The notes below the pieces were generated by a model that searched no databases, was not told the origin of the DNA, and saw only the letters and a program-made list of their open reading frames with translations. Below are positions 16,602-51,351 of a DNA stretch of 64,000 bases, piece by piece. The translations under genes were made by a program, and so were the position numbers. How positions within the stretch are numbered: position 1 is the first letter of the stretch; each line of letters starts with the position of its first letter. Source of the DNA: Botryosphaeria dothidea (Eukaryota > Ascomycota > Dothideomycetes > Botryosphaeriales > Botryosphaeriaceae); assembly GCA_011503125.2 (NCBI GenBank), contig WWBZ02000040.1, positions 2,666,001-2,730,000 on the forward strand. The letters run 5' to 3'.

Positions 16602-18618
16602 AAAAGGGTCACTGTTGAGCCACCCTATCGAGCAAAGAGAAAATGATAATGCAGCTACCTTCTATAAGCACTTCGTGAAGGGAATATTTGTATGCTGCTC
16701 GGGTGTGTGTTCTGAGCTGTTAAGTGGTCGAGGGGGAGATGGTACGTGGGACAGAAAGATCCCGGAGCTGTGTACCGGCGAAAGACAAGGATAAATGCAC
16801 ATTTGACGTCAGCACCACGCCCTTTCGATGCTGAGCGTGACTGCCTGGAGGGAGAGATCGATCTCGGCTATTTTTAAGGTTCGGCCGACAGGGTCGGGGT
16901 AGCGGGGTCCACGTGAGCGCTAAAAATGCTTACCTAACTTTCACCCACACCAACACCTATAAAAACCTCTCCTCCCTCGCGCTCCTCCTTCCAGAAAACA
17001 TTCTGGTGCAAGGGCATGAGCTGCGCAAGTGAAGGGTAACCTGATGCCAGCTTTTTGCTAGTTGAAAACTACAACTAATGACCGCTTTTGTTGGCCTTCG
17101 GGTCGGCAAGGAATATTTGGAAACCCAAGGTTCTGGTATAAAACCAATCTTTTCGTTGCGTTGTTCGCCTTGCGCGGGCCCGCGAGGAAGAGACCAGGCT
17201 CATTTTCACACAATAAATGGAAGAATACGGTAGACATTTGGAAGTGTAGGGGTGGGCTGCTCGCGCGTGAGGAGTGAAAAGTTATAGCATCGTTTGCTGC
17301 TCATGTAGACACTCTTTGAAAGCCAAAATTTTCATCGCGGAAGATCAAGTTGTACAGATGTGCGCAGGTCTCAACGGATTCAACGTCCGTGATATGGTTT
17401 GCATTTCAGTCCGCTCTCCGGCCCCTGATTTGCGCTTGCATCAAACGGAACATGCCCAGTGCACCGTTTCCAAGCTTCTACGTTGCGTCCAGACATCTCT
17501 GACGCGGCAACGCAGAGCTCGACGCGTTTTCTGTTGTTTTGCTGTTCAGCCTCGCCTCCTGCGCCCGCACCCCTCCCTTTGCGACCGCAACCTCCCCCAA
17601 CGTGCCTACGCCGTGGCATATCCCATCCGCAGCTTTCCGTTATCGATGAGGCCATAATCCGCAACGATTGCGGACGATATCCTGCAACTCCACTGCTGAT
17701 CTGAAGATCTTGCAACGACCTCCGCGATCCGAGTTGATGGTTGGGCCAACGGCGAAACTGCGACGCGTAGGCAGCAACCAAACCCACGTCTCGACGCCCT
17801 GCAAAATGCCACATCCTATATCCCCATAACTACCTCTCGTCCATCGTCGCCTACGGTTACATAAATGCGCGTGTCGAACCAGAGGATGCTGGGGAATGGA
17901 TGATGCGCGAGGGGGTGAAACGCGGGTGGATGACACGCGACGACATCGTCGTGGCAGGTAGCAGTGCATGCTGCTCATGACAGAGTTTACATTCTGCTTC
18001 TCTATTGAACGGAATCTGTCTGTCACATCTGCTCAATACTGTCAAAGCTGTGGGGTGGCCGAGGCGTGCTGGCCGGGCAGATTGTCGCCACAACCGCAGG
18101 CAACAGGCATAAGCGGGCTGGCCACAGTGGCGCCCCCAAGAGATGCTCGGGCATCCGCTACCGCACGAGTGCTTCCAGCCAGCGGGCTCTTGTCGCGGTC
18201 TTTGCGGTCTTTCTCTGCCGCGAATGCGTCTGTTGTAGGTCTGTCGACTGACGGAGGGCAAGCACAACACCCAAAGCTCCCATTATTAAATAACACAAGC
18301 ACCCGGTGAAGAGCTAAGCCTAGAAATAAGCATATCGCGAAAGAGGTGACAATATCCATGTTGTTTGGAACATTTCTGGGACCTGGGTTGCCTCCGCTCC
18401 TTCTACAACGGCATCTGAGCTGCTACTTGGTGATTATGTAATACATTGGAGAACAGCCTACCTATGCGCTTCTGAACTATTATCGTGAAGAGTTGCCATT
18501 CGTAATTTAAAGCAAAGAAGCAGAGCAGAGTAAATACCAGGCGCTTGCACCTCCGTCTTTTAGCGATTAAACAGAACGTAGAAACCCCCACCATCAGCCC
18601 TCCGGCCCAAAACACCAT
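16602..18618. other. 2 kb region without a well-supported gene
   Basis: Contains a TATA-like TATAAAAA near 16959 and several short frames on both strands. The best candidate is the 105-codon minus frame at 18042-18359, listed separately. Nothing else shows family features. Confidence 0.4.
18042..18359 (-). CDS. possible small membrane protein (weak)
   Basis: A 105-residue frame begins with a hydrophobic stretch (SFAICLFLGLALHRVLVLF), then a Cys/Pro patch (GCCACPPSVDRP), an Ala/Ser-rich hydrophilic part and CGCGDNLPGQH near the end. The hydrophobic start suggests a signal or anchor. There is no family match and no exon structure, and the region is GC-rich, so it may be a chance frame. Confidence 0.22.
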   Translation of the reverse strand: MDIVTSFAICLFLGLALHRVLVLFNNGSFGCCACPPSVDRPTTDAFAAEKDRKDRDKSPLAGSTRAVADARASLGGATVASPLMPVACGCGDNLPGQHASATPQL

Positions 18619-33200: not shown

Positions 33201-34367
33201 CAGCTTCAAGCAAAAGGAGGATCCTTCAAGCCCTTCCTGTTTTTCTACATGCGGGCGCTGTGGAAGGGTGATGGGAACGAGAGCGCACTTCGCTCCACTC
33301 ATGAACGCATAGCAGCTCAGGGCAGGACTTTGGTTGAAGACTTCGGGGATCTCGCTGTCGATCTTTTCGCTGAGTATGACAGGACTCTTTTCATGGAGTT
33401 CCTGAAGTTATCGCAGAGCTATGACTATGAGAAGGCTTGTGCCGTCTGTGACGCGAGACAGTACATCCCAGAGCTTGTGTAAGTGGTTGTACTGCCCCCG
33501 TCAAGGTATTTTGAACTAACCGACTCGCAGCTACATCCTTTCGAAGACAGGCGAAGTGAAGAAAGCCCTCTTCCTCATCATTGATAAGATGGGTGATGTC
33601 TCCTACGCCATCTCCTTCGCCAAGGAGCAAGATGATCCCGACCTCTGGAATGACCTACTCGACTACAGCATGGACAAACCGCGTTTCATCCGAGGTCTCC
33701 TTGAGGAAGTCGGAACAGCTATCGACCCCATCACGTTGGTCCGCCGCATTCCCGAGGGTCTCGAGATCGAAGGTCTCCGGGATGGTATCAGACGCATGGT
33801 CAGGGAGTACGAAATTCAATTCAGCATCAGCGACGGCGTTGCCAAGGTTTTGCGGAGCGAGGTCGCTTCGGCGATGGAGACTTTGCGATCTGGGAGGAAA
33901 AGAGGCGTCAAGTTCGAGGTTGTAGATAAGGAGCCCGAGCACGTGGACGTGTTTGTCGAACCGCTGCCAGAAGCACAGGAGACGGCCGACCCGTCGGTTG
34001 CTGACAAGAACGTCGATCCTCCAAGCGGTATCAAGCCTGGTCACTGCGTGGGCTGCAACAAGGCGTTCACAGAAGACGGTACGTATCACAAGAGGACATT
34101 CTCATGTATCTTGCTCGTGACTGACTCGGATTTCCAGAGAAGGAAACTCTCCTCGGCTTTGCTTGCGGCCACGTGTACCACTTGTCTTGCCTTCTCGAAT
34201 CTGCCGGCTCCGGCTCCAGCGCCTCCGCCGCTTCGATGCTGCAGGCCCAGTTCGCGGAAGATCCAGACACGTCGAGCCACAACGTGGGCGCCAAGGTTGC
34301 CCACGCGCATCTTATTCGGAATGCCCTCAGTGGCGGTTGCTCTGTGTGTGCGGAAATCGCAGAGTAG
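30275..34367 (+). CDS. VPS41: Vps41, HOPS vacuole-tethering complex subunit
   Basis: Vps41 is the HOPS effector subunit that binds the Rab7 homologue Ypt7 and tethers membranes for vacuole fusion. Exons: 30275-30517, 30575-30601, 30649-31658, 31709-33478, 33531-34078, 34138-34367. The introns are 47-59 nt and all phases fit, giving about 1275 residues, usual for filamentous fungi. Domain order is an acidic N-terminus, a beta-propeller (LKYDRLTSVLGSVYRN, IIGTHNGNI, NSIYIATSSIDGHVCVSS), the clathrin-heavy-chain-like repeat region (HPLAFSAGLKIFIHSPYDC, LEALAKLYIADGRPKQALQ, LFLIIDKMGDVSYAISFA) and a C-terminal RING-H2 (CVGCNKAF ... CGHVYHLSC ... CSVC). The acceptor of exon 3 could be 3 nt later (CAGCAG). 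No frame break. Confidence 0.95.
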
Positions 34368-44489: not shown

Positions 44490-47327
44490 TTATCCCTGCC
44501 ACCTGACTTTCTCACTGCGCAGAATGCTGATGAGTCCCAACGGCAGCAGACCCTTCTCGCAGATGGCCAGACCACCGAACCGCTTTTCCGTCTCGCCAAA
44601 GTAGAGCGAAACTATCCACCGCCAATACGGCTTCAGATCACCCCAGGTGACACCAAAGCCGGCGGTATTGTACGTTCCGGTAGGAAGCCTCCTCATCGCC
44701 GAGACGACCATGTGGGTGGAGTCGACCATGGCTTCTTCCGTCGGCTCGAGGAGCTGCGAGTACGCGACGCTCAGTTGGTCGGACGTCTGCTCGGAGAAGC
44801 GCATGTACTCGTCCAAGCTCATGAACGACTCGCCCTCGAGATTCTTTGGCGTCGTCTCGTCAACTGGCACCTCTCCAGCCTCGAAACTCTCCTTGGCCTC
44901 ATCGTAAGCTTCCTTCTCATGCAAAAGGGCCTGTTCGAGATCTTTTGCTGGGTTCTTACGCGAGGACTCTCGCATCGCGTACAGCCGGATGAACGGGTTC
45001 AACAAGCCAAGGCCACCCAGCTCGACCGGGAAGTAGAAGAAGGCATCCGGAATGGGACGTCCGCAACTGATGGCCGTGGCTCCAGCGAAACGCTCAGTGA
45101 TGATTCCGCGAAGGTGCTCAGCAACATTTTCAGCGCCCGACTCAGTAAAGAGGGAGCGCTGGATACGTTCGAATGTCTCGATGCACATGTCGAGGTGTTT
45201 GCGGCCAAGGCAAGAAGCTGGCTGTCCGAAGTTGGTCGTGAAGAAGCGTGCAACGTAGCTATTCCAAGCTTGCACCCAGGCAAAGACGCTGCGGCACGCC
45301 TCTAACTGGCGCTTGAGCTCCTTGATGTGCTCAACGACCTGCTCCTGGTCGATGACCCAACGACGCTCTTTGGTATCGAGCTTCAAGAAGCCCCATCGAA
45401 TCGTACCCCGTGGGAGCGACTTGTGCAAGGGCGCTAGAGCCTGCTTCTCGGAACTCACCACTTTCGCAGCCGCCGTTTTGTCCTCATTCAACTGCAAACC
45501 CGTAACCTTCGTGAACTCCTGCAGTGTCTGCCACGCTTTTACGCAAGTGCTCTCCTGACCCCAAAACCACAAGTCGTCATGGAAACGGTACATCACAGCC
45601 CCACCAGTCTTGCGGTGAACAGCAAAGTCCAGACAGAAGAGGACCGACTCTCCCAGAGCATCTGCGAGCACATGACCCATGGGGATGCCATTCTTGCGGA
45701 CCTTGGGCTCGGCGCCAGGGCCATCCTGAGTGAAGACAAGTGGAGCTGCTAGGAACTTCTTGATGAAATCCAGCCAGCGCTTGTCGAGATTGAAGTACTC
45801 GAGGACGGTGTACATAGTGTCATGTGGAATGGAAGGGCCGAACCACTTGAAATCACTGGTAAAAACCGTGAAGTCGCCGTAGAGCTTCGTATTGACGAGC
45901 ATTTCGGTTGTGACCAGGCGGAGCAATGACTGCTTGATTTCAAGAGGATGCTTGGTATTGTCATCTGCGTCCGAGGCGTCATCCCCGTACTCGCGATTTC
46001 CTTCTTCCACTGTCGTAGGCATCTGCGTCATGAACCAATCATCCCGGAAGGTCGACCTCCGGAGCTCACGCACAGACTGCCCATGAGCCTGCACATTCTT
46101 CTTGCCGAGGAAGTAGTGACGTCGCTGCCTGTCCACTCTGGTCATTGCGCGGTAAGGAGCTTGAACCCAGGCGCCGGAGTTGAAATGTGCATGAAAAGCG
46201 TTTCTTAGCATGACAGCTAGATGGGCACCGATAACGTGGATCAGAATTGCCGTGTGGATTTCCTCGTCCATGTAGGCCCGATACTTGCCATTCAGCTGAC
46301 GGCGCAACAGGACGGGTACGGGGCCAGGCCAATCCCAGCTCTTCAAGGAGTCGAGGTCCATACGTAGAACATCAACCATCTCCTTGATCACCTCTGAACG
46401 TGACTGGAGATCGACGAGTACTTCACGTTTAGGTCCGGTGAAGAGATCAGCCTTCAAGATACCCTTGATGGCTGAGTGGATAGTATCCTCAGTCACCGTG
46501 ATGACTCCGTCCCAGTGTCCAATGTTGTAACGAAGCTGCTCCAAAGGAGTCTTCTGCGAACCCCTGGCCTTGGGGACGGGAATAAGAAGGTCGTCCAGAT
46601 ACTTCTTGATGGTGGCAGTGTCAATGGTGGGCTCGTCGAAGATGAACTGTTCCAGAGTCTTGCGTTGCTCATGCATCTCCTCGCGTCCGATCATGTCAAA
46701 CGAATCCAGATCGTCGCTCGGAGAGCGAGATTGAGTCTCGCGGACATCATCTTGAGCTTCTTCACTATGAGCATTCAGCTCCTTCATGGCATCGCTGGGC
46801 TTCTCGATCCACTCGGTGACCAGCCTTCCGAAGAGGTCGGCATAGTTGTACTTGTCGGTCTGCATGTCCAGATTCTGTTCCAGCCAGGCGCGCCAATCGT
46901 TGAGAAGGGTCGTCGACACAGAAGGGTCATGACGAGCCTGCTCAAGAAACCTTTCGATATTCTTGACAGAGGACTCGCCTTGGTTGTACTGGATGCCATT
47001 CTTCTTGAATCCGGACATCAGTATGCGGACCTTCTCGGCGGCATTGGGCTCCTTCTCGCAATCATGGAGGAGTCGGGCCTTCTGAGACTCAAACGACTGC
47101 TGGTGCTCGGCAAGCTTGGCGAGCTTGCGATCGGTAACATGACGCAGGGTGGAAGTAACCGCGCCTCCTGACATTTTGTTGGACTTTGTGACACCGGAGA
47201 GGGACTGGGTTGAGCGCGTCGCAGGAAGAGGAATGAAAGGGGTGGGAGCAAAAGCACGACCTCTTCCGCGAAATAGACCTCTTGCTCTGGAGCTGGCCCT
47301 TCCTCTTCCGTTTCCTCTGAAGTCCAT
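44490..47327 (-). CDS. rvt: RVT: cellular reverse-transcriptase-related polymerase, intact, intronless
   Basis: The rvt genes described by Gladyshev and Arkhipova are single-copy cellular RT relatives, not retrotransposons; purified Neurospora RVT is multimeric and prefers NTPs with Mn2+. This is one intact 945-residue frame. Residues 1-30 are Arg/Gly-rich (RGRASSRARGLFRGRGRAF). A unique helical N-terminal part (about 60-330) follows. The polymerase core comprises a thumb-facing LRRQLNGKYRAYMDEE region, an extended spacer before motif A (about 390-485), motif A FTSDFKWFG (Asp492), an RT4-like NGIPMGHVLADALGES (547-561), motif C MYRFHDDLWFWG (Asp584, Asp585), motif D-like GLQLNEDKT (610-618), and motif E-like WGFLKLD. 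A C-terminal helical extension follows. No endonuclease, RNase H, gag, LTR or poly(A) repeat is seen, which argues against a transposon. Confidence 0.9.
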   Translation of the reverse strand: MDFRGNGRGRASSRARGLFRGRGRAFAPTPFIPLPATRSTQSLSGVTKSNKMSGGAVTSTLRHVTDRKLAKLAEHQQSFESQKARLLHDCEKEPNAAEKVRILMSGFKKNGIQYNQGESSVKNIERFLEQARHDPSVSTTLLNDWRAWLEQNLDMQTDKYNYADLFGRLVTEWIEKPSDAMKELNAHSEEAQDDVRETQSRSPSDDLDSFDMIGREEMHEQRKTLEQFIFDEPTIDTATIKKYLDDLLIPVPKARGSQKTPLEQLRYNIGHWDGVITVTEDTIHSAIKGILKADLFTGPKREVLVDLQSRSEVIKEMVDVLRMDLDSLKSWDWPGPVPVLLRRQLNGKYRAYMDEEIHTAILIHVIGAHLAVMLRNAFHAHFNSGAWVQAPYRAMTRVDRQRRHYFLGKKNVQAHGQSVRELRRSTFRDDWFMTQMPTTVEEGNREYGDDASDADDNTKHPLEIKQSLLRLVTTEMLVNTKLYGDFTVFTSDFKWFGPSIPHDTMYTVLEYFNLDKRWLDFIKKFLAAPLVFTQDGPGAEPKVRKNGIPMGHVLADALGESVLFCLDFAVHRKTGGAVMYRFHDDLWFWGQESTCVKAWQTLQEFTKVTGLQLNEDKTAAAKVVSSEKQALAPLHKSLPRGTIRWGFLKLDTKERRWVIDQEQVVEHIKELKRQLEACRSVFAWVQAWNSYVARFFTTNFGQPASCLGRKHLDMCIETFERIQRSLFTESGAENVAEHLRGIITERFAGATAISCGRPIPDAFFYFPVELGGLGLLNPFIRLYAMRESSRKNPAKDLEQALLHEKEAYDEAKESFEAGEVPVDETTPKNLEGESFMSLDEYMRFSEQTSDQLSVAYSQLLEPTEEAMVDSTHMVVSAMRRLPTGTYNTAGFGVTWGDLKPYWRWIVSLYFGETEKRFGGLAICEKGLLPLGLISILRSEKVRWQG

Positions 47328-48139
47328 GTTAATGGCTGGGCGTGGCGGAGTCGCAGGAAGGGGGGTTCACCTTAGAGTCTGTGGGGAGAGCGAAGAAGAG
47401 ATGAAGGTGTGATGGTGAGAGGGCAAGAAGATGCGGACGTTGGGCGGCTTATATGCTGGAGAAGCTGCGAGCTTGCTGCAGAGAAGCGGCGGCGCCGACA
47501 AACGGCGGAAAACTAAAGCGGACACCATGGAAGGATCGCCGTGAGTCAATGCGCAACAGGTGCCTTCCCCACAGTTGCCTGCTGCCTGCCTGGGGGTGCA
47601 GAGGCGATCTCCGCCGCAAATGGCTAGAAGCTGGAAGCAAACTCACAAATTGCCCACGCCCGAAGTTGTCTGGCAGATGAGAAAAAAAGGGCAATCCGCA
47701 GAATAGGGTGGAAGGCAGATGCAGGATGAATACTTTGAGGTGCGTGTCATTGGGCTGTGGATCCCTGCGCCGATCGCCTGCTAGCGCGGCGTGAGTGGGT
47801 GTCAAACCAACACCGCCGCCGCCGTCGTCTTGTTCCTCTGACACCTCCCTCTTCGGTGTCACCTCTCAACCCACCCGGCCCTGTGCAAATCTTTTAGGCA
47901 GCTTCACGCCCGTGAGATAGAGAGGCTGCCTGGAGGTAATTTCTCGTCGATGGCGTCATACCTGATACCACGTCCTTGAGTTCTGCAGTTAGACCAGGTG
48001 TGTGTACGATTCAACGGGTATTCCGGCCAATAGCTTCGAATGTGGCCTTTCGGGAATTGGGGCTAATGTTTCTTTTATCTCCTGTTCCTCTTATGGTCTG
48101 GTACTGACTGTCTGAGGCTGAAATTCTGGACACGGCAGA
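47328..48139. other. rvt promoter side / divergent intergenic
   Basis: An 812-bp interval between the divergent rvt and unknown plus-strand genes. A minus frame at 47449-47862 has only low-complexity chance character. No element recognised. Confidence 0.4.
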
Positions 48140-49111
48140 ATGAAGTCATCGTCAGGCCTCTTTTCGAAATGCTGCTCTTTTCCTGGTATACGAAGAGTAC
48201 CAATTGGAGCATATCTAACAGAGTGTACACCAGAAGTACATCGTCGTGCAGCTATTGCATGCTACTCCGCACCAAATCCGCGGCCTGGTGTGCCATTTAC
48301 TCGTGAGAGACTCAACATTCAACCGACCATCCGACCCATACAATTGCGCGCCTATGCTTCGCTCAGTGGCACCATCGCTCTCAGTCTTGATGAAGCCGCG
48401 CGTTCGGTAGCTGAACCACAAACCCTTGCCGGATGTCGCAGTGTACAGCTCAGCTTCTCGGACTGGCAAAGATGGAATGGAGCTACAAGCCGTCATGATC
48501 AAAGGTGCCACTCAAAACTATCACACGTCCTGGGTGCTCTTGATTCAAGCCCATATGTCGACAGTGTTTTCCTGGCCCTGTCTGACATACTTGCCCTGCC
48601 ACTTGAGAGCCGGGTCCTCCCCAATCGCCGAGACCGGACACCTGTTACTATTCTCGCTTCACTTGCCATCGAGGTTGAGCCCAGTGATCTCGGAGTATGG
48701 GGTCTCCCTCACTATCCGTCTTTCAGTATTCGGGAACCAGCTGTTATGAAAATTGTGCAGGAGGCGAGGAAATACAACGGAAATGCAAGTGCATGGCATC
48801 GGGTCATTGCAAGATCGGGCCCAACTTACCAGGCATTTGATTTCACGGCTTCCTTCCACTCCCGCTCCAGGATTGACAGCACAACACAGTCCACGGCTCT
48901 CGTCGACTTTGGTCCTTACGGCTCGGAAAGGTACAGAACCGAAGACCTGGACATTCTCAGCATCTGTTTCGCCGATGATATGGCTCACAACGCGAAATGC
49001 TTCAAGCATGGTCACAAGTGGCACCCTTACTTGTATGAAGAGCTCAAGAGGCGGAATCGTGGGGTCGTGAGCTCAAAGCTCGACAATTCCACAGGCAAAG
49101 GCGGAAATTAA
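48140..49111 (+). CDS. unknown 323-residue protein
   Basis: A single intact frame from ATG 48140, longer than expected by chance at this base composition. The N-terminus is basic and Cys-containing (LFSKCCSFPGIRRVPIG). Recognisable segments include VQLSFSDWQRWNG, SSPYVDSVFLALSDILALP, PAVMKIVQEARKYNGNASA and a C-terminus with DILSICFADDMAHNA, then HGHKWHPYLYEELKRRNRG. I know no domain with this pattern. There is no membrane segment. It ends about 500 bp before the tRNA-Trp gene. Confidence 0.55.
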   Translation: MKSSSGLFSKCCSFPGIRRVPIGAYLTECTPEVHRRAAIACYSAPNPRPGVPFTRERLNIQPTIRPIQLRAYASLSGTIALSLDEAARSVAEPQTLAGCRSVQLSFSDWQRWNGATSRHDQRCHSKLSHVLGALDSSPYVDSVFLALSDILALPLESRVLPNRRDRTPVTILASLAIEVEPSDLGVWGLPHYPSFSIREPAVMKIVQEARKYNGNASAWHRVIARSGPTYQAFDFTASFHSRSRIDSTTQSTALVDFGPYGSERYRTEDLDILSICFADDMAHNAKCFKHGHKWHPYLYEELKRRNRGVVSSKLDNSTGKGGN

Positions 49112-49612
49112 TTCTTTGCTCACAAGACAAGACCCCGTTCTTCACCAGCTTTACAAATATTTCATCTGAGTGGAGAAGAACCAACATCCATCTGCGCTTC
49201 GCCTTTTTTTCAAGTCGGAACTCGTACGGTTAATGCCACTGGTTTAAAAAAATTCTGTGAACCGTTTCCTAAATAGCCTATCAGATCGCATGACGATCAC
49301 TACACGGAGGTCTACTATATACATAGCAAGAGTCTTCCACATCAAAATCCGAGGACATGACCGGGCTGAATTACAGTGAGGCTTCGGTTTCTTCAAGAGT
49401 GGGAAAACTGCGGCAGGCTTGATGCTCTCGGCTAAAGAGGGCCGCACAGAACGCTCGGGCCAGTCTGTCCGAGAAGCTTCCCCACTGTCTCTCTCAAAGC
49501 CCCTCGCGCGCAATTCTTCACGCCATGAAGACGCTGGTATTCTGTAGTGCAAACTTGCAATGGTTTGGACACGGTACAATTGGGAAACAGGCGACATTCA
49601 CCATCAGGTTAC
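49112..49612. other. intergenic before tRNA-Trp
   Basis: No gene or repeat recognised. The short minus frame at 49244-49597 has no family features. Confidence 0.45.
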
Positions 49613-49619
49613 GGGGGCG

Positions 49620-49630
49620 TGGCGCAACGG
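49620..49630 (+). promoter_or_regulatory. tRNA internal promoter A box
   Basis: TGGCGCAACGG matches the TFIIIC A-box consensus TGGCNNAGTGG with two differences. It lies wholly in the first exon. Confidence 0.75.
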
Positions 49631-49635
49631 TAGCG

Positions 49636-49693
49636 GTAAGTTTCCAATAGGTCGTCCAATCGGCACAACTCAACGTACTAATTCTCCTCATAG
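49636..49693 (+). other. 58-nt spliceosomal-type intron in the tRNA-Trp D arm
   Basis: Starts GTAAGT and ends CATAG, with TACTAAT ending about a dozen bases before the acceptor. Length and signals match this genome's mRNA introns. Its exact removal restores the fourth base of the 3' D-stem strand (GCG+C), giving a perfect GCGC/GCGC stem. I see no bulge-helix-bulge fold that would suit the tRNA splicing endonuclease. Confidence 0.75.
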
Positions 49694-49706
49694 CGTCAGA
49701 TTCCAG

Positions 49707-49722
49707 ATCCATTCTTGGAGTA
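49707..49722 (+). other. 16-nt canonical tRNA intron after position 37
   Basis: Lies one base 3' of the anticodon, the universal eukaryotic tRNA intron site. Its TGGA (49717-49719 region) can pair with the anticodon-loop TCCA, the usual anticodon-intron helix. Exact ends could shift by a base or two. Confidence 0.75.
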
Positions 49723-49736
49723 TCCTGAAGGTTATG

Positions 49737-49747
49737 CGTTCAAATCG
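49737..49747 (+). promoter_or_regulatory. tRNA internal promoter B box
   Basis: CGTTCAAATCG spans the T loop and matches the core of GGTTCRANTCC. The two introns put it about 107 bp from the A box, within the range TFIIIC tolerates. Confidence 0.75.
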
Positions 49748-49758
49748 CATCGTCCTCA

Positions 49759-49777
49759 TTTTCTTTTTGTTCTTTTT
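49759..49777 (+). terminator. Pol III terminator
   Basis: T runs of 4, 5 and 6 directly follow the tRNA discriminator base, as at Pol III terminators. Confidence 0.8.
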
Positions 49778-51351
49778 TGCTCGTAAGTTGCATGCTCTCC
49801 GTGGGTTGCAAATGACTCTCCTCCGCGGTCCCAAGTGGAGACCAGCCGGTCTAGGCTCGAATGCTCCGTTAGCTCGTGGCCAAGCGAAGGACAATAGGCC
49901 GAGGGCAGTGGCTTTTGGAACCCGTCTCGTGGCACGTGAGGCAGGAAAGAAAGGGTAGAAGAATTGCGATGCATGCTCAGTCGAAGCATTGTTCGGGATG
50001 CAAGTCTGTGAAGAACTGAGGACATCGATATCCGGACAAATTGGTGCTTGAAAACCCCCGCGTGCATATTTACACTAACTGCCGCAGCATCTTCTTTTGG
50101 ACATTGAACGGATCTCATAAACAGCACAGTTGCCTCCGAAGCGCACGGAATTCCTAGGGGCTCCACTGATGAGGGGCTACGCCGTCTGATCTTTGTCGTA
50201 TGTTGACCGAAGAATGTGAGAAGAATGGAACCACTCTGAAGGCTGATAGCGAGCCTGAACCCGAAACCTCATCATTGGCGCTGACGTAGCATCGAGATCA
50301 GGGGACTGAGATGCAAAAGGAGAATCGGAGACCCAGGCGTCCACGTCGGAACCCAAACCAAGCCCCGCATGACTAAGCCGCCCACATCCACTTGCACCCG
50401 TCTCTCCACAGATCAGACGACCAACCAGAATCATCAAGCAATCAACACCAGTACATTATCATTGCTGGCAAGCTCCTCTTTCAAGTTGGGAGTGTCCTCC
50501 AACGGTAGCGCGTTAGATCGGGCCCATCTGCACAGAATCCCGCTCGGCATGCCTCACAATCCATAAGCACAATGCCCCTGTTGCCATTGACGAAGTTTGA
50601 GAGCATATAGTTCATGAGGAATAGAGATTGATGTGATCCTCTTGAAGTGGTCTCGTGCAATACTCGGAGTGCGTTGGGTGACCAGCCTAAAGAGTGTCTT
50701 TTTTTTCTCCTTTGAAACATTACAGTTGGACTACATTTTTGTAGGCGGTGGGATCTTGCATCTTGATAGTCTGCAGCAACTGGGTGATTGCGTGGATACG
50801 ACTTTTGGACTTTGCCAGCATCCAACGAAGACGTGTAGGAAGAGCAGGGGACTACTAAGAATGTGCACGATATGAGCAGGTATCTGCGGATATTTCGTTC
50901 CTCGTGACATTTGAAGAAATCCGAAGGTGGCGTAATTGATGAGCAGAATAGGTATACAAGTGCGGTGAAGTGAAGGCAAGCTACTACGGCCTTTGACCGT
51001 TCCGTTCCTTTAAGTTCCGCATCCAACGGGTACAAGAAACGGGGACATTTCCCACAGTAAAGTGGCATTCAGTATCAGATTACTCCTCCGGATAGAGCTG
51101 GCTCCAACTGATCAAATTGACGCTTGAAAAATAAGTTAGGAGGAACACACAGGTCTTGCATTCGCAGGCAGACCCGGGGTGCGACACTACACTTTTAGCT
51201 ATGGCTACCCTTGAAAACTTCTAGTATTATCTGTAACAATGCCTCTTTGGGCGTATTATAGCAGCGGCTTTGTCTTATAACTGGTTCTTGAATTAACTCA
51301 TGCATAGCAAGATCTACAAACTACAAAGACGACTGTCAATCGAGACTGAAG
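49778..51351. other. intergenic after tRNA-Trp
   Basis: No supported protein gene; frames on both strands are short. Contains the tRNA-Trp-like fragment at 50500-50519. Confidence 0.4.
50500..50519 (+). repeat. fragment resembling spliced tRNA-Trp D arm
   Basis: CAACGGTAGCGCGTTAGAT matches the tRNA-Trp sequence across the D-arm splice junction with one mismatch over 19 bases and lacks the 58-nt intron. Flanking bases do not complete a tRNA. Confidence 0.35.

Follow-up and report, generated by a model that had tools for sequence, protein, structure and literature searches.

Can a nuclear tRNA gene carry an intron of the kind that the spliceosome removes from mRNA, in addition to the small intron that tRNA genes ordinarily have next to the anticodon? 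The question is raised by a tRNA-Trp(CCA) gene of Botryosphaeria dothidea that is split twice (positions 49613-49758, plus strand, read directly and placed by script). Positions are those of the window, by which we mean the whole 64-kb stretch of DNA analysed. We conclude from sequence comparison that among the three distinct tRNA-Trp sequences of this genome, two very probably contain a genuine U2-type spliceosomal intron between nucleotides 24 and 25, together with a canonical anticodon intron.

Results

Anatomy of the split gene

The 5' exon (49613-49635) covers nucleotides 1-24 of the tRNA, which has no nucleotide 17, and contains the A box (TGGCGCAACGG) starting at 49620. The exon ends three bases into the 3' strand of the D stem, and there the strand is interrupted by a 58-nt mRNA-type intron (49636-49693) which begins with GTAAGT, carries TACTAAT at 49676-49682 and ends in CATAG, its 3' terminus reading TACTAATTCTCCTCATAG; its longest run of T is 3. 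The middle exon (49694-49706) supplies nucleotides 25-37 with the anticodon CCA. A canonical 16-nt anticodon intron follows between nucleotides 37 and 38 (49707-49722), and its pairing is as expected of a SEN substrate, with 4/4 pairs in the central helix and 4/5 in the outer helix. The 3' exon (49723-49758) provides nucleotides 38-73 and the B box (CGTTCAAATCG, from 49737). Terminator-like T runs for Pol III occupy 49759-49778 (T4 at 49759, T5 at 49764 and T6 at 49773). All these features are on the plus strand. The sequence-only reading had described a D stem split by 58 nt with these termini and this heptamer, and it proved exact to the base both by direct reading and by script; the two boxes and the three T runs that it listed were likewise located by script.

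Taking out both inserts left a 72-nt tRNA with the CCA anticodon, U8, A14, G18-G19, the T-loop sequence TTCAA and the discriminator A73. Standard pairing was found in 20 of 21 stem pairs, the exception being A31-C39. This mismatch was common to all three distinct tRNA-Trp sequences and is thus no sign of decay in the window copy. It sits where the stem meets the anticodon loop and may reflect either a trait of the lineage or RNA modification or editing at this site. The earlier proposal that excision of GT...AG and of the anticodon intron restores the cloverleaf therefore holds, with GT-AG as one of two placements. The preceding exon and the insert share a final G, which leaves two placements of the excised stretch, offset by one base: GT-AG and GG-TA. 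No third was seen by eye.

Two neighbours in the window are recorded as separate observations. A U4 spliceosomal RNA gene lies at 17000-17137 on the plus strand (RF00015, 90.7 bits), and its sharing a window with the split tRNA is probably a coincidence. Some 2.2 kb away from the tRNA gene, the minus strand has an open frame of 958 aa (44493-47366) in which a reverse-transcriptase domain was recognised (PF00078, 35.7 bits).

tRNA-Trp genes across the genome

The genome searched comprised 51.68 Mb in 78 contigs, with the window on contig C36; a published B. dothidea assembly is given as 46.34 Mb with 137 tRNA genes, in a paper that also describes RNA-seq and small-RNA libraries (PMC7325678). 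A P450 reading frame within the window had 99% identity over 95% to a protein of B. dothidea, in accord with that source. Five tRNA-Trp places were found, which fall into three distinct gene sequences: that of the window, also on C78; that of C7; and that of C12, also on C67. Around the gene, 3241 bases of C78 were identical to the window, as were three of the four ten-kb stretches compared; the fourth stretch was 99.5% identical, differing mostly by indels. Given this near-complete identity, C78 was counted as a duplicate and not as an independent locus. The C12 gene has no D insert and has a 16-nt anticodon intron, and an identical gene lies on C67, a contig of 11.7 kb. Here 2344 bases matched C12 at 99.5% (0 mismatches, 12 gaps), and the rest of the 10-kb C67 stretch (7.66 kb) had no match in the 10-kb stretch of C12 used. 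C67 may represent a duplicated piece, a variant or a genuine second locus. Duplicated or variant pieces such as C78 against C36 and C67 against C12 mean that numbers of copies may be overestimated in this genome.

The sequence-only reading had listed, among findings that would speak against it, other intact tRNA-Trp genes without the insert and with reads from these alone. The first half of this was observed: such a gene is present on C12 and identically on C67. The locus on C7 bears a D insert as well. Since the genome has one tRNA-Trp sequence that lacks the D intron, the genes with it may not be essential. The cell may tolerate the D intron without needing it, with the C12/C67-type gene as a backup; the intron may have been lost in C12, for example via a half-spliced RNA intermediate, or gained in the other two genes.

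Pattern searches for further Trp genes showed none beyond these among the places read. The Trp A-box pattern (at most one mismatch) occurred at 11 places, five of them the known genes and the other six not Trp by eye; the Trp anticodon-arm pattern occurred at six places, five of them the known ones. The RF00005 search scored 63 of 1497 candidates, so that it is not a full tRNA list, and a very divergent tRNA-Trp could be missed.

A 5S rRNA gene lies near the C7 tRNA-Trp gene (L003:709-828, minus strand). The 5S stretch had 28 other places of 79-94% similarity, on many contigs and both strands; 5S-like genes therefore seem scattered and diverged in this genome.

Exons and splice signals are kept while the rest drifts

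The C7 gene allowed us to ask what has been kept between two D-intron genes. Its insert is 62 nt long, sits at the same 24/25 point and reads GTACGC...TACTAATCCCCCTCATAG, and the gene has its own anticodon intron of 19 nt. The flanks of the two genes are unrelated: when 10 kb round the C7 gene were compared with the 64-kb window by blastn, the gene alone was aligned (167 aligned columns). The exons differed at 4/72 positions, namely 16, 47 and the pair 49-65, which has changed in a compensated manner from A-U to G-C in the T stem. By comparison, the exons of the window gene and the C67/C12 gene differed at 3/72 positions, two of which form the compensated pair 6-67, and those of C7 and C67/C12 at 7/72. 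The gene sequences are distinguishable at nucleotides 6, 16, 47, 49, 57, 65 and 67, the bases of C7 being T16, C47, G49 and C65.

Within the D inserts, both copies start with GTANG(Y), and the last 18 nt, counted from TACTAAT, were identical at 16/18 positions, with 11 nt between TACTAAT and the intron end in both. By contrast, the interiors (34 and 38 nt) were saturated, since 1775 of 2000 shuffles aligned as well or better. Near-frozen exons and splice signals alongside drifting interiors and flanks form the picture expected when a functional tRNA gene carries an intron that is spliced. This pattern indicates that selection is acting on the mature tRNA and on the splice signals, an argument drawn from a single diverged paralog pair, which is a small sample from one genome. 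If gene conversion has acted between the exons, their identity would be overstated, and this is the main way in which the conservation argument might be weakened.

How often such splice signals arise by chance

We quantified how readily such signals arise by chance. A strong grammar, with GTRNGY at the start and TACTAAY followed by 6-14 nt and YAG at the end, was found in none of 1,000,000 shuffles of either insert. A weak grammar (GTR, CTRAY, YAG) was met in 41 and 9 per 1,000,000 shuffles of the two inserts. Across the 64-kb window, the strong TACTAAY grammar occurred once, at the tRNA-Trp D insert, and not at all in the reversed control. The weak form GTRNGY-CTRAY-YAG occurred 18 times in the window versus 21 times in the reversed sequence, and without an excess over the reversed sequence it is meaningless alone.

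Genome-wide, TACTAAY was followed by a B box at 4 + 17 places. The reversed-pattern controls gave 10 and 15, a similar frequency, so most of these places are chance occurrences. A removable GT-AG piece was present at 9 of the 21 places, and none was found at the other 12 under the limits used. Removal of the piece gave a tRNA in ARAGORN at three of the 21 places: C7, the window gene on C36 and its duplicate on C78. At each of the three, the exact GT-AG junction received the top ARAGORN score among nine choices of donor and acceptor. Within a scan limited to TACTAAY plus GTTCRANTC, no tRNA other than those at the tRNA-Trp places had a GT-AG intron of this type.

We also considered a dispersed family of introns with the same 3' end and rejected it, as 3'-end matches with at most two mismatches were found at 7 places against 17 in the reversed control. 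Exact matches to the intron 3' end numbered three in the genome, all of them in Trp genes (C78 included). Pattern scans of contig collections from viruses, bacteria and archaea gave 0 occurrences of the same gene, and since these were the groups scanned, the absence there says nothing on fungi.

A dispersed family of a different kind was seen, with an exact B box, a 3' end reading GGTTCGAATCCGGGTGGGGACTGTTGC and T tails whose length ranges from 4 to at least 18; among the matches listed many contigs are represented, for example C6:859675-859705, C8:205499-205529 and C12:945450-945480, all on the minus strand. The family resembles a SINE derived from a tRNA, its poly-T end being of variable length.

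The D introns resemble an mRNA intron

The extended consensus of U2-type donors is GTRNGY. The donors of the window gene (GTAAGT) and of the C7 gene (GTACGC) both fit it, and both acceptors are AG, the placement being ambiguous by one base. For comparison we used one mRNA intron of the same window, in a Vps41-like gene (33479-33530, 52 nt). It begins with GTAAGT and has ACTAAC followed by 10 nt to CAG, and the reading frame is open across the join. As the sole mRNA intron compared, it shares a similar grammar with the D introns, with 10 nt after ACTAAC versus 11 nt after TACTAAT. The mRNA intron contains TTTT, which is absent from both D introns, so that Pol III could read through them.

Taken together, a paralog that keeps only the splice signals of its insert, apparent selection of the tRNA type on the exons, a fit to the strict bulge-helix-bulge (BHB) geometry described below that is far poorer than that of the anticodon junctions, and likeness to an mRNA intron support the spliceosomal reading that had been proposed from the window alone.

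How tRNA finders see these genes

Once the D insert was removed, ARAGORN labelled the C7 gene Trp, as it did the C67 gene. The window gene without its D insert was labelled Arg(CCT) and not Trp because the anticodon intron was slid by two bases; the pairing of that intron supports CCA. On the unspliced window gene, with introns of up to 200 nt permitted, ARAGORN reported an 82-base tRNA-Trp with a wrong intron. On the unspliced C7 gene, with introns permitted, it reported no tRNA, and in bacterial mode it did not find the window gene. A comparison of Rfam models with 49300-50000 at E up to 1 gave no match, and the Rfam tRNA model thus misses the gene. Minimum-energy folds of the mature tRNAs by ViennaRNA gave no cloverleaf, including for the tRNA of the D-intron-free gene, and carry no information here. 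According to the description of tRNAscan-SE 2.0, a eukaryotic tRNA gene has at most one intron (PMC8450103).

Discussion

Alternatives to a spliceosomal intron

The D-insert genes might be dead or silent, either as pseudogenes or as TFIIIC-only sites, with the C12 gene (and that on C67) supplying all tRNA-Trp and the insert doing no harm. An intact gene without the insert does exist, and in eukaryotes, according to a review, insertions in the D or T arm mostly occur in one of many synonymous genes and are supposed to mark pseudogenes (PMC4090602). Nevertheless, neutral decay should strike the exons as it strikes the inserts, and here 68/72 exon positions are identical, with a compensated pair among the differences, next to interiors that are saturated; such frozen exons around a drifting interior are hard to obtain from a dead gene. 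Both D-intron genes have also retained the pairing of their anticodon intron, and the donor, branch site and acceptor are kept at two loci, which is unexpected for a dead insertion. We therefore regard silent genes as improbable. A further possibility is an mRNA or lncRNA made by Pol II that runs through the tRNA gene and to which the intron would belong, with the tRNA as a passenger. A 329-aa frame on the same strand (48122-49111, no Pfam match) ends 500 bases upstream and could be taken to favour such a transcript. Yet the C7 gene, in unrelated flanks, carries its intron between the same two tRNA nucleotides, the insertion point fits the cloverleaf exactly, and A and B boxes and T runs are found in both genes, leaving this explanation only the slimmest chance.

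Instead, SEN might cut out the D insert and tRNA ligase join the exons, as for non-canonical tRNA introns of archaea, Cyanidioschyzon merolae or nucleomorphs, with GT-AG and TACTAAT being coincidental. Strict BHB geometry can be tested in the form hBHBh'. At the D junction this form had 3/4 central and 1/5 outer pairs in both genes, and the GG-TA placement gave 1 and 1, versus 4/4 central and 4/5 outer pairs for the anticodon introns, which served as the positive control, in all three gene sequences. A relaxed search that took the best of 18 offsets permitted 3/4 central pairs in the window gene and 4/4 in C7, in a search uncalibrated by shuffles. As far as pairing in the genes can tell, the BHB test weakens the SEN reading of the D insert. 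Its lack of a BHB is not decisive, because many nucleomorph introns of Guillardia form no defined BHB (PMC3978253). Non-canonical tRNA introns in the D arm are known (PMC3978253; PMC4090602). The stronger argument, judged from the two inserts, is that their best-kept part is the branch-site heptamer and the acceptor, a pattern that SEN would leave unexplained. We consider SEN cleavage of the D insert highly unlikely and retain the spliceosomal intron as our reading.

Proposed maturation of the tRNA

If the D insert is a spliceosomal intron, its removal may be pictured as follows. The A and B boxes and the T runs suggest that Pol III would transcribe the gene. The nuclear spliceosome would then recognise GTAAGT or GTACGC, the TACTAAT branch site and CATAG, and join nucleotide 24 to 25, which would restore the D stem. 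After this the tRNA could fold, and SEN and tRNA ligase would excise the anticodon intron, as its canonical anatomy implies. Sen54 reportedly brings SEN into contact with the D arm (PMC4090602; PMC3978253), and for this reason the D intron probably leaves before the anticodon intron.

Comparison with known systems

The U6 snRNA of Schizosaccharomyces pombe and other fungi offers a close likeness, an mRNA-type intron in a short structured Pol III RNA. By contrast with a tRNA, U6 is itself part of the spliceosome, and its intron is attributed to reverse splicing near the catalytic nucleotides (PMC10484740). That explanation is not directly transferable to a tRNA. Repeated insertion of U6 introns in fungi has reportedly been found in one study. 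Fungal U3 snoRNA genes also have mRNA-type introns in a small structured RNA, and the literature on them describes eight genomes with both intron-bearing and intronless copies. U3 differs in that it is not a tRNA, involves no second splicing system and has no cloverleaf to be rebuilt.

With respect to position, the tRNAs of archaea, of Cyanidioschyzon merolae and of nucleomorphs are similar, as these are described as having an intron in the D arm and sometimes a second intron (PMC3978253; PMC4090602). The archaeal and C. merolae D-arm introns differ from ours in being tied to a BHB-type structure, and those of the Guillardia nucleomorph in being 3-24 nt long, with a splicing route reported as unknown, according to one of these papers (PMC4090602). 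The portions of both texts that treat non-canonical tRNA introns do not mention GT-AG or a branch site (PMC3978253; PMC4090602). The canonical anticodon intron at 37/38, handled by SEN, is present in the same B. dothidea genes, and the D insert sits elsewhere. Searches of the open-licence literature showed no earlier description of a tRNA interrupted by a spliceosomal intron, which is no proof of absence from print.

Significance

If the spliceosomal reading is true, a tRNA would join U6 as a Pol III transcript regularly handled by the spliceosome, and one small RNA would have to pass through two unrelated splicing machines in a fixed order. The D-intron tRNA-Trp would then be a clean case for asking how essential structured RNAs gain introns, and tRNA censuses would be suggested to miss a class of genes. 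More tentatively, as a real possibility which we hold short of an expectation, this may be the first nuclear tRNA that requires both the spliceosome and SEN. The D intron may then act as a checkpoint that ties the supply of tRNA-Trp to the spliceosome, and such genes could perhaps be widespread in the Botryosphaeriaceae or beyond, hidden from tRNA finders.
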